From Candidatus Jettenia ecosi (GTDB lineage Bacteria > Planctomycetota > Brocadiia > Brocadiales > Brocadiaceae), in the NCBI GenBank assembly GCA_005524015.1, contig SULG01000017.1:1-51273 (forward strand): a stretch of DNA of 51,273 bases, given 5' to 3'. Positions 34,166 through 40,898 of this stretch are shown here, one piece after another. The notes below the pieces were generated by a model. The model made no database searches. It was not told where the DNA came from and saw only the letters and a list, made by a program, of their open reading frames with translations. Every line of letters starts with the position of its first letter. The stretch's first letter is position 1. The translations under genes and the position numbers were made by a program.

Positions 34166-34765
34166 ATGAGTACAGGAAAATTAGATACGGAAGTCAGGCA
34201 AAGTCAGATAGCACAAGCAGCTTTAAGTTTGATTGCAAGTCATGGTTTAAAAGGATTAAGCATAGCAAGGATAGCCCGCAAGGTCGGCATTGTGCCTTCA
34301 GCAATATACCGGCACTTTAAAAATAAGGAAGAGATGCTCGATGCTATTCTTCATCACATTCAAAAGAGGTTGCTCGATAACATCGATATTGTATGTAATG
34401 AAACTCTTGAGCCACTTGACCAACTCAGGCGGCTACTTATGTATCACGTTAAGCTTATTCGGGAAAACCAGGGAATTCTTCGCATTATCTTTTCTGAAGA
34501 TTTCTGCCATGGGCATCCAAAACGAAAAGGTAGGGTATATGATATCATACTAAACTATCTCAATAACGTAGACAAAATTATTATCCAGGGACAGCAAGAA
34601 GGCAAAATACGACGGGACATAGGCCCGGCAACTATTTCCTTAATGTTTTTGGGTATCATTCAGCCAGCGGCAATTCTCTGGCATATAAGTGATGGTAAGT
34701 TTGATGTAACAAGACATGCAGAAAAGGCCTGGAAAACGTTCAGTGAATGCCTTATCATGAAATAA
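34166..34765 (+). CDS. TetR-family repressor of the exporter operon
   Basis: The 199-residue product has a TetR_N helix-turn-helix at about residues 13-59 (AALSLIASHGLKGLSIARIARKVGIVPSAIYRHFKNKEEML in essence, with SAIYRHFKNKEE as recognition end). A helical ligand-binding domain follows. It opens the operon for a membrane fusion protein, two ATPases and two permeases. Similar dyads lie in its own promoter and in front of the fusion-protein gene, which supports local repression relieved by a ligand. In E. coli the analogous ybhGFSR exporter also has a TetR regulator. The ligand is unknown. Confidence 0.93.
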   Translation: MSTGKLDTEVRQSQIAQAALSLIASHGLKGLSIARIARKVGIVPSAIYRHFKNKEEMLDAILHHIQKRLLDNIDIVCNETLEPLDQLRRLLMYHVKLIRENQGILRIIFSEDFCHGHPKRKGRVYDIILNYLNNVDKIIIQGQQEGKIRRDIGPATISLMFLGIIQPAAILWHISDGKFDVTRHAEKAWKTFSECLIMK

Positions 34766-34823: not shown

Positions 34824-35837
34824 ATGAGAAAAGGTATAAAAATAATGACATTTTTGATACTCATAGGCATTATCACAGCAGCGTCAACATACCTGTATCT
34901 CAAAAATAAGTCACACAGCGATTCGAATATCATTCGTGTCTCCGGTAATATCGAGGTCACTGATGCCGAGGTGAGCTTCAAGATTTCAGGACGCGTGGAT
35001 AAGCGCCTGGTGGATGAAGGTGAATTCGTACAAAAAGATGAACTGGTAGCCTTGCTCGATAGTTCAGATTTGACTAGCGAGGTAGAGATACGTCGTGCTG
35101 AACTACAAATGGCACAAGCAGACCTGGCTGAACTTGAAGCCGGTTCGCGTCCTCAGGAAATTGCTGAAGCTGAGGCAAAACTTGCAGCGGCAAAAGCAGA
35201 TAAAATACATTTAGAGAGTGATTTTCATAGAGCGGAAAAACTATTCAAGCAACAGACGATTTCTGCTGAGGAATACATGCACTCCAGGGGAGATTACGAA
35301 GTTGCGGTTGCCCGATTACAGGAAGCTGAGGAACGTCTCAAATTGATTCAGGAAGGCCCTCGAAAAGAACGGCTAGATCAAGCCCGTGCACGGGTGAAGC
35401 AGGCGCGGGCAGCCCTTAAGCTAGCTCAGATACATCTGGGTTATGCGAGACTAGCTTCCCCCCTTTCCGGTGTCGTTCTCTCAAAGAATATAGAACCGGG
35501 AGAATACGTTGCCCCTGGAGCACCGATTGTTACGATTGGTAATCTTGAGAATGTATGGTTGCGAGCATACATTAACGAGACAGATTTAGGTCGCGTGAAG
35601 GTTGGTTATCAGGCAAATATAATCACCGATACCTATCCGGATACGATATACAAAGGCTATGTATCATTCATTGCATCTCAGGCCGAGTTTACTCCGAAAA
35701 ATGTCCAGACAAAAGAAGAGCGTGTTAAGCTTGTTTATCGAATAAAGATCAACATCTCTAATCTCGGTATGGAACTAAAACCCGGGATGCCTGCTGATGC
35801 GGATATTATAATTCCTGATACCATTATTAATAATTGA
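34824..35837 (+). CDS. HlyD/YbhG-type membrane fusion protein
   Basis: The 337-residue periplasmic adaptor has one N-terminal membrane anchor (about 7-27). The first half of a lipoyl domain follows (SFKISGRVDKRLVDEGEFVQ), then a long coiled-coil hairpin rich in Ala, Glu, Arg and Lys (about 85-200). The second lipoyl half (ASPLSGVVLSKNIEPGEYV) and a beta-barrel (VWLRAYINETDLGRVKVG) complete it. This is the layout of adaptors such as YbhG and YhiI, which connect ABC-2 permeases to an outer-membrane channel. No channel gene is adjacent. A TetR operator lies 26 bp upstream of the start. Confidence 0.93.
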   Translation: MRKGIKIMTFLILIGIITAASTYLYLKNKSHSDSNIIRVSGNIEVTDAEVSFKISGRVDKRLVDEGEFVQKDELVALLDSSDLTSEVEIRRAELQMAQADLAELEAGSRPQEIAEAEAKLAAAKADKIHLESDFHRAEKLFKQQTISAEEYMHSRGDYEVAVARLQEAEERLKLIQEGPRKERLDQARARVKQARAALKLAQIHLGYARLASPLSGVVLSKNIEPGEYVAPGAPIVTIGNLENVWLRAYINETDLGRVKVGYQANIITDTYPDTIYKGYVSFIASQAEFTPKNVQTKEERVKLVYRIKINISNLGMELKPGMPADADIIIPDTIINN

Positions 35838-35888
35838 TAAAACGATGGAAATCTTCATTTGGTACGCCATTTGTATTATGATAAATAT

Positions 35889-36824
35889 ATGGAAATGATT
35901 AAGACTACTCACCTTACAAAAAATTTTGGTAATATCCGCGCAGTCGGCGATCTCAGCTTCAGTGTATTTAAAGGAGAAATTTTTGGGCTTGTTGGCCCTG
36001 ATGGTGCCGGAAAGACGACTACCATGCGGCTGTTGACCTCGATCATGGAGCCGACATCAGGTAATGCCTGGGTCGTTGGCCATCATGTGGTAAAAGAATC
36101 AGAGATAATCAAGGAGAAAATCGGTTATATGAGCCAGAAATTCGGTCTGTATCCAGATCTCACCGTGATAGAAAATATCAATTTTTACGCTGATATTTAT
36201 GGCATACCACGTAAGGAACGTGAAAAAGAGACAGACAATCTCCTTGCCTTCAGTAACCTAAGACCCTTCAAGAAACGACTGGCAGGAAATCTTTCAGGTG
36301 GGATGAAACAAAAGCTGGGCCTCGTCTGCGCATTAATTCATACACCCAGGGTACTCTTCCTCGATGAGCCAACGAATGGTGTGGACCCGGTCTCTCGCCG
36401 CGATTTTTGGCGTATTTTATATGGGTTGCTTCACAAAAACGTTACGATCTTCGTCTCAACTGCTTATCTCGATGAGGCTGAACGCTGTAACAGGGTTGGA
36501 CTCATTCATAAGGGCAGACTGCTGGCTTGTGGAACTCCAGATGAGGTAAAAAAGCTTATGCATGGGACCATCCTTGAGATCCATTCCTCAGAACCACGGA
36601 AAGCCTTAGCCATCTTACGTGAAGAGTTACACGCTGACTCCCTGGGAATTTTTGGTGCCTCCATTCACCTGGTGACCCAGAATCCAGAAAAGTCAATGGT
36701 TCAAGTCGAAAAACTTCTCAGGAAAGCTGATCTTAAACTTAGTGGGATGAGGGTCATTAAGCCAACACTGGAAGATGTATTTGTCTCGGTCCTTGTCAAA
36801 GACAAGGGAGTTCAACAATCATGA
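35889..36824 (+). CDS. ABC transporter ATPase 1 (H-loop His replaced by Ala)
   Basis: The 311-residue nucleotide-binding protein has Walker A GPDGAGKTT, signature NLSGGMKQKL, Walker B VLFLDEPTNGVD and a C-terminal DUF4162-like region. In the switch segment the sequence is VSTAYLDEAE, with Ala where His is usual. It pairs with the next ATPase, whose motif changes are complementary. The two together correspond to the single tandem ATPase YbhF of E. coli. I chose the ATG at 35889; a TTG at 35859 is open in frame but gives an atypical N-terminus. It overlaps the next gene by 4 bp (ATGA). Confidence 0.93.
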   Translation: MEMIKTTHLTKNFGNIRAVGDLSFSVFKGEIFGLVGPDGAGKTTTMRLLTSIMEPTSGNAWVVGHHVVKESEIIKEKIGYMSQKFGLYPDLTVIENINFYADIYGIPRKEREKETDNLLAFSNLRPFKKRLAGNLSGGMKQKLGLVCALIHTPRVLFLDEPTNGVDPVSRRDFWRILYGLLHKNVTIFVSTAYLDEAERCNRVGLIHKGRLLACGTPDEVKKLMHGTILEIHSSEPRKALAILREELHADSLGIFGASIHLVTQNPEKSMVQVEKLLRKADLKLSGMRVIKPTLEDVFVSVLVKDKGVQQS

Positions 36825-37795
36825 AAACCATTAAAAATGACAAAGCCATCGTGGTAAAAGATCTGGAGAAACGGTACAGCAAATTTATGGCTGTAAACCG
36901 TATGAGCTTTGAAGTCTCCAAAGGTGAGATATTTGGCTTTCTCGGTCCCAATGGATCTGGCAAATCTACAACAATTCGGATACTGTGTGGCATTCTTGCA
37001 CCAACTGGCGGTGCGGGAACAGTGGCAGGGTTCAACATCCGCACCGAAGCGGAAAAGATCAAGAGCCATATTGGGTACATGAGTCAAAGATTTTCACTTT
37101 ATGAAGACTTAACCGTTGAGGAAAATATTAATTTCTATAGCGGCATTTACCACATCACTCCCAAAAAGGAGAAGGAACGAAAAGAATGGGTAATCGAGAT
37201 GGCCGGCCTTAAGGAACACCGCCATTCCCGGACGGCCTTTTTATCAAGCGGTTGGAAGCAGAGACTGGCACTTGGTTGTGCAATCCTTCATGAACCACCG
37301 ATACTATTTCTCGATGAGCCAACATCCGGGGTTGACCCCATTAGCCGCCGCCAATTCTGGGACCTGATTTATGTATTATCTGGCAGAGGTATTACCGTAT
37401 TTGTTACTACCCATTATATGGAAGAGGCCGAATATTGTAATCGAATAGGCCTTATCTATCGGGGTAAATTAATTGCCAGCGGAACGCCAGAGATGCTGAA
37501 GACAGAATGTATGCAAGAGGGCGTTTTGGAAGTTCTGTGCGAGCGGCCTCAAGATGCAATGATCGAAATTAAAAAGGTTGAAGGTATCAAAGATGTTGCT
37601 CTCTTCGGCAAGGGATTGCATGTCGTAGCCGAGGATGGTGATACTGCTGCATTTGCAATCAGACGTTTGCTCATGGGAAAAGGCTACGGGATTGCACCTG
37701 TTGAAAAGATTGTTCCTTCACTTGAAGATGTATTTGTGTCCCTTATAGAAGCTCAGGACCGGGCGGAGCAACCTCAACAGGAGGTACAACGATAA
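36821..37795 (+). CDS. ABC transporter ATPase 2 (degenerate signature motif)
   Basis: The 324-residue protein has Walker A GPNGSGKST, Walker B ILFLDEPTSGVD and a normal H-loop (VTTHYMEEAE). The signature reads FLSSGWKQRL instead of LSGGxxQ. In a heterodimer with ATPase 1, its Walker motifs and switch His would face the intact LSGG of ATPase 1 and form one canonical site. The other site would combine the Ala-for-His ATPase 1 with the altered signature. Start and upstream stop overlap as ATGA, so the two are probably made in equal amounts. The product energises the two ABC-2 permeases downstream. Confidence 0.93.
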   Translation: MKTIKNDKAIVVKDLEKRYSKFMAVNRMSFEVSKGEIFGFLGPNGSGKSTTIRILCGILAPTGGAGTVAGFNIRTEAEKIKSHIGYMSQRFSLYEDLTVEENINFYSGIYHITPKKEKERKEWVIEMAGLKEHRHSRTAFLSSGWKQRLALGCAILHEPPILFLDEPTSGVDPISRRQFWDLIYVLSGRGITVFVTTHYMEEAEYCNRIGLIYRGKLIASGTPEMLKTECMQEGVLEVLCERPQDAMIEIKKVEGIKDVALFGKGLHVVAEDGDTAAFAIRRLLMGKGYGIAPVEKIVPSLEDVFVSLIEAQDRAEQPQQEVQR

Positions 37796-37840
37796 AATTA
37801 TGAGAATCTCACAGGAAATGATGAATTCAAAGGAGAAAAT

Positions 37841-38437
37841 ATGATGAGAAATAAAAATATATTCGCTGCATTAACTATCTTGGCAATCTTATTTATGCAT
37901 GTTCTTTTTATGCCTAGCTCCATTGAATGTTTAGCACAAGGCCATACTCATACATCAGAATCTCGCGAAATAAAAGGAGGTAAAACGATGAAATTCCATA
38001 TCCCCCAACCGTTAAAGGTAGAACATGAAGAACTTCACGAGGAACTTGTCAAAGCTACTAAGGCAGGTGGCAAGACAGGAGATGCAGCAAAGGCTGTTGC
38101 AGATCTCTTACATCCACATTTTATAAAGGAAGAGGAATTTGCCTTACCACCGCTCGGTTTATTATCCCATATAACAAAAGGAAAAGTTACAGCAGAAATA
38201 GAAGGTGTTCTTACAATGACTGATAAATTAAAAGCAGAACTTCCCCGAATGCTTCAAGAACATAAAGCAATTGTCGATTCCTTACAGAATTTAATAAATG
38301 CAGCAAAGGGAGAAAAGAAGACGGAATATGTACATTTTGCAGAGAAGCTCATACTGCATGCACAAACTGAAGAAGAAGTTTTATACCCAACTTCTCTTTT
38401 GATTGGTGAATATCTGAAATTGAAACTGAAGAAATAA
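37841..38437 (+). CDS. Hemerythrin-like HHE-domain protein with signal peptide
   Basis: The 198-residue product starts with a hydrophobic signal sequence (about 5-32) after AAGGAGAAAAT. The mature part is a four-helix HHE domain, with His/Glu ligand segments VEHEELHEEL, HPHFIKEEE, LQEHKAIVD and HAQTEEEVLYP. Such domains bind a non-haem diiron centre and sense or bind O2, NO or reactive species, or store iron. The gene is inserted between the exporter ATPase and permease genes. A second ATG at 37988 with a perfect binding site would give a 149-residue form without the signal. The link to export is inferred from position only. Confidence 0.85.
   Translation: MMRNKNIFAALTILAILFMHVLFMPSSIECLAQGHTHTSESREIKGGKTMKFHIPQPLKVEHEELHEELVKATKAGGKTGDAAKAVADLLHPHFIKEEEFALPPLGLLSHITKGKVTAEIEGVLTMTDKLKAELPRMLQEHKAIVDSLQNLINAAKGEKKTEYVHFAEKLILHAQTEEEVLYPTSLLIGEYLKLKLKK
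37973..37990 (+). promoter_or_regulatory. Internal ribosome binding site and second start in the hemerythrin gene
   Basis: AAAGGAGG (37973-37980) stands 7 bp before an in-frame ATG (37988). It is stronger than the site of the first start. Translation from here would leave out the signal peptide and begin exactly at the folded domain (MKFHIPQPLKVEHEE). Confidence 0.6.
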
Positions 38438-38545
38438 CGCAACAATAGTTATTGAGAGACTGTCCGAAAATTCAAAAATGTCGTCCCGATCAATAAAGAT
38501 GCGAGAAGTTTCTCCATGCACAGACCCAAAATACTCTTTAATAAA

Positions 38546-38564
38546 GACAGGTTTCAAACGTGTC
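38546..38564. repeat. Imperfect dyad in the hemerythrin-permease gap
   Basis: GACA-G-GTTT-C-AAAC-G-TGTC forms a hairpin with one mismatch, in the middle of 195 non-coding bases (38438-38632) between the hemerythrin and permease genes. No T-run follows. The rest of the gap shows no gene; such a gap is unusual within this otherwise tight operon. Confidence 0.4.
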
Positions 38565-38632
38565 TCTATTCGGAATAACAGTCCTTATTTTCTGATAGGC
38601 CCTTATTCTTCCTAATAGGAGTCGAGAAGGCG

Positions 38633-39766
38633 ATGAAGTTGTTTCGAATCAGGGCCGTTGCCCATAAGGAATTTATTCATATTGCGCGTGACCCAAGAAG
38701 CCTTGGTATGGCCATCGCCATTCCACTATTGCTGCTGGTACTCTTTGGTTATGCTTTGACACTCGATGTGGATAATGTACCCATGGTAATATGGGATCAG
38801 AGTGAATCTCAGGTAAGCCGGGAATTCATAAGCCGTTTTAGAGGTTCTCACTACTTCTCACTCAAAGAGTTTGTACACAGCTACCGGGGAGTAGAACAGG
38901 CTATCGACTCCGGTAAGGCCTTTGTAGCCCTCATAATCCCGACAGATTTTGCGAGGCGCATTGGGCGTGGAAACCCTGCTCCTGTACAATTAATTGTGGA
39001 TGGAAGTGATTCCAACACTGCAACGATCGCGATTGGATATGTTGATGCGGTTACCCAGATCTACTCCCGTGATATCGCTGTTCGTGAAATCCAGAGGATA
39101 GGAGGAAAAAAACTTCAGTCGCCAATTGATATACAGACCCGGGTTTGGTTTAACGCCGACCTGGAATCAAAAAACTATATTATTCCTGGCCTTATCGCTG
39201 TAATTATGATGGTAATCGCTGCACTTCTTACCTCATTAACGGTAGCCCGTGAATGGGAGCGAGGCACTATGGAACAACTTATTTCCACACCCGTAAAGAG
39301 CCAGGAGCTGATCATTGGGAAGCTTATCCCCTACTTTGCTCTAGGAATGTTTGACGTATTTTTATCTGTGCTCATGGGAGAATATCTTTTTAGAGTTCCA
39401 CTTCGTGGTAACATTGCCTTGCTCTTTAGTATGGCAGCGGTCTTCCTGGCAGGCGCCTTATCATTGGGTATGGCTATCAGTATACTTACCAAAAGTCAAC
39501 TTCTCGCCAGCCAATTAGCAATGATATTGACGTTTTTACCCTCATTTTTGCTGTCAGATTTTATGTATGCAACTAGTAATATGCCAAAAGTAATCCAGAT
39601 CATTACCTATGCAATTCCGGCAAAGTATTTTGTGACTATACTAAAAGGTATTTACCTGAAGGGTGTAGGTTTAGAGGTTTTGGCGTTCGAGGCAGGACTC
39701 TTGATTATTTTTGGTATAGCCATGGTACTTTTAGCTAACATAAAATTCAAGAAAAGGTTAACATAA
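38633..39766 (+). CDS. ABC-2-type permease 1 (YbhS/YbhR-like)
   Basis: The 377-residue protein has one N-terminal membrane helix (about 24-46, SLGMAIAIPLLLLVLFGYAL). A large extracytoplasmic domain of about 130 residues with VDGSDSNTA follows, and then five or so membrane helices from about residue 180. The segment REWERGTMEQLISTPVKSQELIIGK is the typical cytoplasmic loop of the ABC-2 family that touches the ATPase. It forms a heterodimer with the next gene, one base away. Substrates of this subfamily are drugs or other small molecules; none can be named here. Confidence 0.93.
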   Translation: MKLFRIRAVAHKEFIHIARDPRSLGMAIAIPLLLLVLFGYALTLDVDNVPMVIWDQSESQVSREFISRFRGSHYFSLKEFVHSYRGVEQAIDSGKAFVALIIPTDFARRIGRGNPAPVQLIVDGSDSNTATIAIGYVDAVTQIYSRDIAVREIQRIGGKKLQSPIDIQTRVWFNADLESKNYIIPGLIAVIMMVIAALLTSLTVAREWERGTMEQLISTPVKSQELIIGKLIPYFALGMFDVFLSVLMGEYLFRVPLRGNIALLFSMAAVFLAGALSLGMAISILTKSQLLASQLAMILTFLPSFLLSDFMYATSNMPKVIQIITYAIPAKYFVTILKGIYLKGVGLEVLAFEAGLLIIFGIAMVLLANIKFKKRLT

Positions 39767-39767
39767 T

Positions 39768-40898
39768 ATGTACGAACGCATTAAACACATGCTCATGAAA
39801 GAGTTTATCCAAATATTCCGCGACCCGAAGATGAAGGGAATAATCTTCTTAACGCCGATCATTCAAGTGCTTATATTCGGTTATGCCGTAACAACCGATG
39901 TGAAACACGTTGCCACGGCGGTCTACGATCTCGATAACAGCGTAGCTAGCCGTGAACTTGTGAGCCGGTTCGTAAAGTCGGGCTACTTTGATGTCGTAGA
40001 ATACATAAACAACGAAGGCCGTGACCGTGACTTGATTGACCATGGCAAAGTTCGGGTCGTCTTTCGTATGAACAAGGGCTTCGAGGACGATTTAAGAGCA
40101 GGGCGAACTGCACAACTCCAGGTGATCGTAGACGGAACCGACTCGAACACAGCAGGGGTTGTACTTGATTACAGCGCAAAGATTGTTGGGCAATTTTCAC
40201 AAAAGATTTTCATTACAAGGTATACTCAAATAAAAGGCCCAGCCGAGAGGACTGCCAGGATAGAAATGCAAACACGGGCATGGTTTAACGAAAACCTGGA
40301 AAGTCGTAATTTCTATGTACCGGGTGTAATCGCGATCATTGTGATGCTTATCACCTTGATGCTCACCAGCATGGCAATTGTGCGCGAGAAGGAGGTCGGC
40401 ACGATGGAACAAATTCTGGTTACCCCAATCACACAAACAGAGTTTATACTTGGTAAAACCGTACCCTTTGCTATAATAGGTATTGCTGATGCAATCATGA
40501 TTACCCTGATTGGAGTATTCTGGTTTGAAGTGCCGATACGAGGCAATCTCTTTATACTCTTTATCGCCACAGCCCTTTACCTTATGACAACACTTGGTAT
40601 AGGACTCTTGATTTCAACAGTCAGTAAGACGCAGCAGGAGGCAATGATGAGCGCTTTCTTATTCTACTTCCCTGCGGTACTCCTTTCGGGATTTATGTTT
40701 CCCATTGCCAATATGCCAGTAATCGTCCGGTGGCTCACCTACTTGAATCCACTCAGATATTTTCTGGTAATCGTCCGGGGCATCTTCCTTAAGGGAGTGG
40801 GCCCAATTATTTTATGGCCACACATGATTGCACTTGCCATAATGGGTATAGTAATATTATGGATAGCATCAAAAAGATTCAGAAAGACTATTGCTTAA
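39768..40898 (+). CDS. ABC-2-type permease 2 (YbhS/YbhR-like)
   Basis: The 376-residue protein is a paralogue of permease 1 with the same plan: N-terminal helix (FLTPIIQVLIFGYAVTTDVKH), extracytoplasmic domain with VDGTDSNTAG, and five or so C-terminal helices. The coupling loop reads REKEVGTMEQILVTPITQTEFILGK. The two permease genes are separated by one base, so a fixed heterodimer is likely. About 19 bp after it comes the gene for a small four-cysteine protein. Confidence 0.93.
   Translation: MYERIKHMLMKEFIQIFRDPKMKGIIFLTPIIQVLIFGYAVTTDVKHVATAVYDLDNSVASRELVSRFVKSGYFDVVEYINNEGRDRDLIDHGKVRVVFRMNKGFEDDLRAGRTAQLQVIVDGTDSNTAGVVLDYSAKIVGQFSQKIFITRYTQIKGPAERTARIEMQTRAWFNENLESRNFYVPGVIAIIVMLITLMLTSMAIVREKEVGTMEQILVTPITQTEFILGKTVPFAIIGIADAIMITLIGVFWFEVPIRGNLFILFIATALYLMTTLGIGLLISTVSKTQQEAMMSAFLFYFPAVLLSGFMFPIANMPVIVRWLTYLNPLRYFLVIVRGIFLKGVGPIILWPHMIALAIMGIVILWIASKRFRKTIA

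Follow-up and report, generated by a model that had tools for sequence, protein, structure and literature searches.

Why does a gene for a hemerythrin-like protein, lodged inside an exporter operon, carry two well-formed translation starts? The question arises from a contig of 51,273 nucleotides of Candidatus Jettenia ecosi (SULG01000017.1, hereafter the window), in a genome of 223 contigs. The HHE gene occupies positions 37841 to 38437 of the forward strand and encodes 198 residues. A first-pass annotation had given it the interval 37841-38632; its start stands and its end does not, since the gene stops at 38437 and the following gap of 195 bp had been included. We favour, with a probability of roughly 0.68, the view that the gene would give one main exported product, that its internal start would be a fossil, and that it was probably added to an existing YbhGFSR-like operon.

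The setting of the gene was described correctly: it is flanked by the genes of an ABC ATPase (36821-37795) and of an ABC-2 permease (38633-39766). The operon reads as follows.

34166 to 34765, forward strand: TetR-family regulator, first gene of the operon (PF00440, 8.4e-14)
34824 to 35837, forward strand: HlyD/YbhG-like membrane fusion protein (PF16576, 1.3e-24; NF002939 at 268 bits, below the cut-off of 393)
35859 to 36824, forward strand: ABC ATPase 1, start codon tentative (PF00005, 4.4e-31)
36821 to 37795, forward strand: ABC ATPase 2 (PF00005, 4.2e-30), overlapping ATPase 1 by 4 bp (36821-36824)
37784 to 37804, forward strand: putative worn relic of the original start of permease 1 (local alignment to the permease start of G056, score 14, 1 of 2000 shuffles as high)
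37841 to 38437, forward strand: HHE hemerythrin-like gene (PF01814, 28.1 bits, above the curated cut-off of 25.3)
38438 to 38632, forward strand: gap of 195 bp with pieces of a dispersed repeat (about 38535-38603)
38633 to 39766, forward strand: ABC-2 permease 1 (PF12698, 1.1e-46)
39768 to 40898, forward strand: ABC-2 permease 2 (PF12698, 3e-54)

A TetR regulator, a membrane fusion protein, ATPases and two ABC-2 permeases also make up, in this order, the ybiH-ybhGFSR genes of E. coli, according to extracts of PMC7190983, and the window operon resembles them. It differs in having two separate ATPase genes, whereas YbhF is one protein with two ATP-binding domains, in its extra HHE gene, and in scores that do not reach the model cut-offs. 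A terminator dividing the operon was considered and rejected, none being found within 37700-38700. The repeat pieces at 38535-38603 have five further matches in the same genome.

The protein itself is a modest variant, an ordinary member of the HHE family with an unusual history. Among the eight PF01814 matches in the genome it is the weakest. Its putative ligands, H62/H66, H93, E97, H141, H173 and E177, are kept in 50/50 or 49/49 of the rows covering each position in a 50-row alignment. In an AlphaFold model, made from an alignment of 47 sequences (the 50 rows used for the tree without L014, L016 and L033), helices 56-73, 77-101, 118-157 and 161-195, with a short one at 103-112, form a bundle with pLDDT mostly above 90, preceded by the signal core, which forms an isolated helix at 5-22, and by 28 residues of low confidence (22-49). 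The pattern H, HxxxE, H, HxxxE is found with H62/H66, H93-E97, H141 and H173-E177 each on bundle helices. The predicted four-helix bundle is of the kind that PF01814 proteins, including RIC/YtfE/ScdA, would share, and the ligand order is that of YtfE (H84, H129, E133, H160, H204 and E208 in the extracts of PMC9268430). Unlike these proteins, and with little similarity to them in sequence, the window protein has a further histidine that never varies (H62 as well as H66) and an export signal instead of the ScdA domain: a Pfam scan found no such domain at its N-terminus, where the signal-like helix and the low-confidence stretch stand.

Comparison with solved structures placed staphylococcal RIC/ScdA and E. 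coli YtfE at the top (Z 9.8-9.3, about 150 residues, rmsd 4.5-5). An unrelated helical bundle reached Z 9.6, so the comparison of folds by itself decides nothing. A plain Foldseek search with the model returned nothing at E 0.001 and ranked ferritins first, a sequence search of solved structures gave three chance matches (E 0.31-0.62), and the bacteriohemerythrin model NF033749 scored 17.1 bits against a cut-off of 84. On indirect signs, namely the HHE family, the ligands and the neighbouring genes in other genomes, the best reading is an exported diiron protein that would bind or consume NO, O2 or peroxide, or handle iron, and would be made together with a stress-type exporter. It may be sent to the periplasm or to the anammoxosome. 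NO is a central intermediate of anammox bacteria, and this gives an exported diiron protein its interest there.

Three features at the beginning of the gene frame the problem of its two starts.

37841 to 37936, forward strand: predicted export signal (hydrophobic peak 2.93; likely cleaved after A32, judged by eye)
37973 to 37981, forward strand: in-frame Shine-Dalgarno (SD) sequence AAAGGAGGT, translated as KGG within the long form and in the register of the true SD of short relatives
37988 to 37990, forward strand: internal ATG (M50), putative ancestral start codon of the family, where 36 short relatives begin; ATA in G002 and ATT in G003

The first start, at 37841, has AAAGGAG ahead of ATGATG, and the earlier claim that it gives an exported protein agrees with a hydrophobic N-terminus ending in ECLA, followed by QG; export is thus predicted, with the cleavage site again placed by eye. 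The internal site is as perfect as had been stated: AAAGGAGG at 37973-37980, followed by a spacer of 7 nt to the in-frame ATG at 37988, codon 50. The anti-SD at the 3' end of the 16S rRNA of this genome matches the SD. The computed strength of the internal SD is -12.9 kcal/mol, versus -8.7 at the annotated start, and accessibility is 0.62 versus 0.46. Across the 44 ORFs of the window, AAGGAGG at a spacing of 4-9 precedes 2 of 324 in-frame internal ATGs, and such a site is therefore not unique. A second perfect SD with an in-frame ATG lies within the permease 2 gene, at window position 40404, most likely by chance.

The origin of the internal site becomes clearer when relatives are considered. 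In a scan of genomes, relatives turned up at 52 loci, in many phyla and with archaea included. The classified set has 49 members, made up of the window, four relatives from anammox bacteria and 44 further sequences; seven were left unclassified, six of them truncated or altered (L025, L039, L053, L054, L056 and L057) and the seventh being L033. The same six were left out of the tree, which kept 50 rows; L013, L014 and L016, identical within the tree region, were counted separately. Short forms number 36/49 and start exactly at the position of ATG 37988, with an SD-like sequence in 29 of these 36. The 13 long forms have an upstream start and a hydrophobic segment. Six changes between short and long forms are needed on the tree, at least three of them forced by well-supported branches. 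The family protein would thus be intracellular in most relatives and exported in a few anammox bacteria; HHE or an HHE stub is present in 6 of the 33 family genomes.

The stretch KGG-K-T-M of the window protein aligns without gaps onto the SD and start codon with which short relatives begin, e.g. that of Methanoperedens. Because this alignment meets the start of 36 short relatives, the internal site has the look of an ancestral SD and ATG that became buried once an export signal had been joined in frame upstream. GGAG stands at the fossil register in 6/13 long forms, against 110 of 2931 codon positions (3.8%) in the same frames, the six cases not being independent; among the long forms of anammox bacteria, L011 and L012, the count is 6/7. 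Six long forms (window, G020, G022, L011, L012 and L035) still have Met where the old start was, and the other seven have another residue there.

If the internal start were a working one, a membrane would have a diiron protein on either side, as a long exported form and a short cytoplasmic form, as the first-pass annotation proposed. The perfect SD of the window with its 7-nt spacer to ATG, an internal start region that equals or exceeds the first in accessibility, and a predicted fold that begins just past M50 speak for this. So does a precedent in Salmonella, where, according to extracts of PMC11005335, PagC and OmpX have alternative-start proteoforms that lose the signal peptide. They share with our gene two in-frame starts placed around a signal peptide; unlike theirs, the inner start of the window would be ancestral and is not conserved. 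G002, a sister species with 87% identity, has AAGGGAAGTAAAACAATA at this site: the SD is broken (-6.0 versus -12.9 kcal/mol) and ATG has become ATA. Identity between G002 and the window is 14/18 at the internal start site and 30/33 immediately upstream, the site diverging faster than its flank. In the anammox fusion protein G003, whose gene runs off the contig end, the ATG has become ATT. The Brocadia copies G020 and G022 retain the internal site, at moderate quality, and its SD and ATG are thus intact in three of the four intact exporter-operon copies (window, G020 and G022). Descent from a short ancestor explains such retained sites. Conservation of both starts in close relatives is therefore not what we found, and the proposal of one gene for two compartments finds no support as an account of this site; we consider it unlikely. 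Since the site is intact in three of four copies and its SD is stronger than the annotated one, some short product remains plausible in the window species. More generally, a strong internal ribosome-binding site may be left over from an ancestor rather than serve regulation, and looking for relatives that start there is a simple test.

A broader reading can be proposed with some hesitation. The family may have switched compartment repeatedly, by in-frame capture behind export signals, with the old SD and start translated within the linker, and intact fossils (in the window species, some Brocadia, L011 and L012) may still give a cytoplasmic form. If so, a dual-localised gene could be observed while it loses one location.

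The second part of the preferred reading, a single exported product from a gene added to an existing operon, concerns the operon. The first-pass annotation took the 195-bp gap as a sign of insertion into an older operon. The insertion is upheld by other evidence, namely HHE-free operons and what remains of a permease start upstream of HHE, and the gap is not part of it: we rejected it as an insertion scar, both gene-bearing members of the genus having the gap and Brocadia only 9-12 bp. The junction between ATPase 2 and permease 1 could be read in 11 genomes. It holds HHE or a stub in five (window, G002, G022, G020 and G013) and is HHE-free in six (G011, G012, G041, G053, G055 and G056), with gaps of 0-150 bp between protein matches. 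The permease search at E 1e-60 had found 13/59 relatives, of which G031 and G032, with a partial or distant match, were left out of the junctions.

Between ATPase and HHE, Brocadia keeps what reads as a relic of the permease start. That of G013 matches G056 at 19/21 positions, with 0/2000 shuffles as good, and G022 likewise; the copy in the window is worn (1/2000 as high) and that of G020 not distinct (225/2000). These shuffles, like those given below for signal and linker, preserve letter composition only and ignore relatedness. Since a relic stands upstream of HHE and HHE-free operons exist, the HHE gene was, on this sequence evidence, put in where the permease of an older operon began. One route would be that permease-permease-HHE was duplicated in tandem and a deletion came later, as we infer from L012, an uncultured planctomycete in which the same exporter operon ends in a gene fusing DUF6448 to HHE. 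In G022 (L060), about 1 kb separates the two exporter ATPase genes and holds an open frame, which we take to resemble a REP-associated transposase.

Might the hemerythrin be a working part of the exporter, for instance one that senses for the pump or protects it? It occupies the same slot in two genera, and the same exporter type adjoins an HHE gene in L012 and L030. We find this quite improbable, as the pump goes without HHE at 6/11 junctions and as, in G013 (Brocadia sp. AMX1; L063:3860-4040), a deletion has left of HHE a stub of 36 codons, fused with the permease-start relic, and the reading frames of the exporter genes are uninterrupted; from this stub beside intact exporter genes, the pump seems not to depend on the HHE protein. 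The survey of YbhGFSR-like operons that had been suggested points the same way. Among 43 other genomes with HHE, 14 have a homologue of the exporter at E 1e-80, and in only two, L012 and L030, do the two adjoin, so that hemerythrin beside related exporters elsewhere is borne out in part. The stretches fetched around 10 further copies of the exporter, two of which lie on contigs of some 7 kb, showed neither HHE nor DUF6448. In L030 (Desulfuromonas), a short HHE gene and a heme protein gene lie directly ahead of a TetR-HlyD-ABC-ABC-permease-permease array. The heme protein gene (L030:8507-8860) encodes a hexameric tyrosine-coordinated heme protein (PF11534), right after the short HHE gene and before the TetR-exporter operon. 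Both the planctomycete and the Desulfuromonas arrangements appear to be new: nothing was found in open papers on hemerythrin together with YbhF, nor on DUF6448.

The long form is real, judging from substitution patterns. Over four between-species pairs, dN/dS is 0.35-0.57 in signal and linker and 0.10-0.31 in the domain, as expected of a translated, loosely constrained signal with purifying selection on its codons. That translation in the window begins at the internal start alone, the signal-like segment upstream being untranslated, is hardly credible, for although the internal SD is the stronger and the family mostly short, each of the four operon copies has an open upstream frame preceded by an SD, these dN/dS values extend over signal and linker, and the hydrophobic core is kept.

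Where did the signal come from? Direct relatives of the window protein follow or are fused with DUF6448 (PF20046), an uncharacterised exported protein, at 13/55 loci. It lies just upstream on the same strand, exported and separate, at 10/55, and is fused to HHE at 3/55 (G003, L011 and L012).

L012:7344-8471: DUF6448-HHE fusion
L062:4344-5288 (G003): DUF6448-HHE fusion
L011:1349-2404: DUF6448-HHE fusion
L009, L015, L017, L022, L024, L031, L034, L036, L038 and L040: DUF6448 and HHE pairs, L015 with only 69 residues matched

The window gene differs from these in having no DUF6448 domain, and DUF6448 was not found in its genome. Its signal resembles that of the G003 fusion (shuffles as high: window 1/500, G020 0/500, G022 0/500, G002 9/500), and likeness to L012 is weak or absent (window 408/500, G022 4/500). 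We rejected the claim that the window linker is proven to come from a DUF6448 linker: shuffles as high were 224/2000 in the window, 881/2000 in G002 and 680/2000 in G020, and only in G022 as few as 45/2000. The signal thus likely came from a DUF6448-HHE fusion that later lost its DUF6448 part.

The preferred history can then be stated in full. A cytoplasmic ancestor of about 150 residues would have started at today's internal SD and ATG. In-frame fusion behind an export signal, probably that of the DUF6448 gene, its recurrent upstream neighbour, would have turned the old start into coding sequence. The HHE gene would then have come to lie inside an existing YbhGFSR-like operon, where a TetR-controlled transcript would yield both pump and iron protein. 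With the signal removed, the four-helix diiron bundle would act outside the cytoplasm, in the periplasm or the anammoxosome.

The pairing and fusing of DUF6448 with this hemerythrin family appears to be new, and it ties an uncharacterised exported domain to a hemerythrin-like protein through repeated adjacency and fusion. In some genomes the surroundings include rubredoxin, a gene like that of CoA-disulfide reductase, a regulator of the Crp type or a heme protein, which points to a part in handling reactive oxygen or nitrogen species. The neighbours of G003 include rubredoxin and pieces of a pyridine-nucleotide-disulphide oxidoreductase with a rhodanese domain. On that contig (L062:2081-3859), the two halves of a broken CoA-disulfide-reductase-like frame come first, the rubredoxin gene next and the DUF6448-HHE fusion after it. 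At the Ignavibacteria loci L009, L011, L015, L017 and L022, a Crp-type regulator is found in four of five, and a small COX1-like membrane protein also in four of five.
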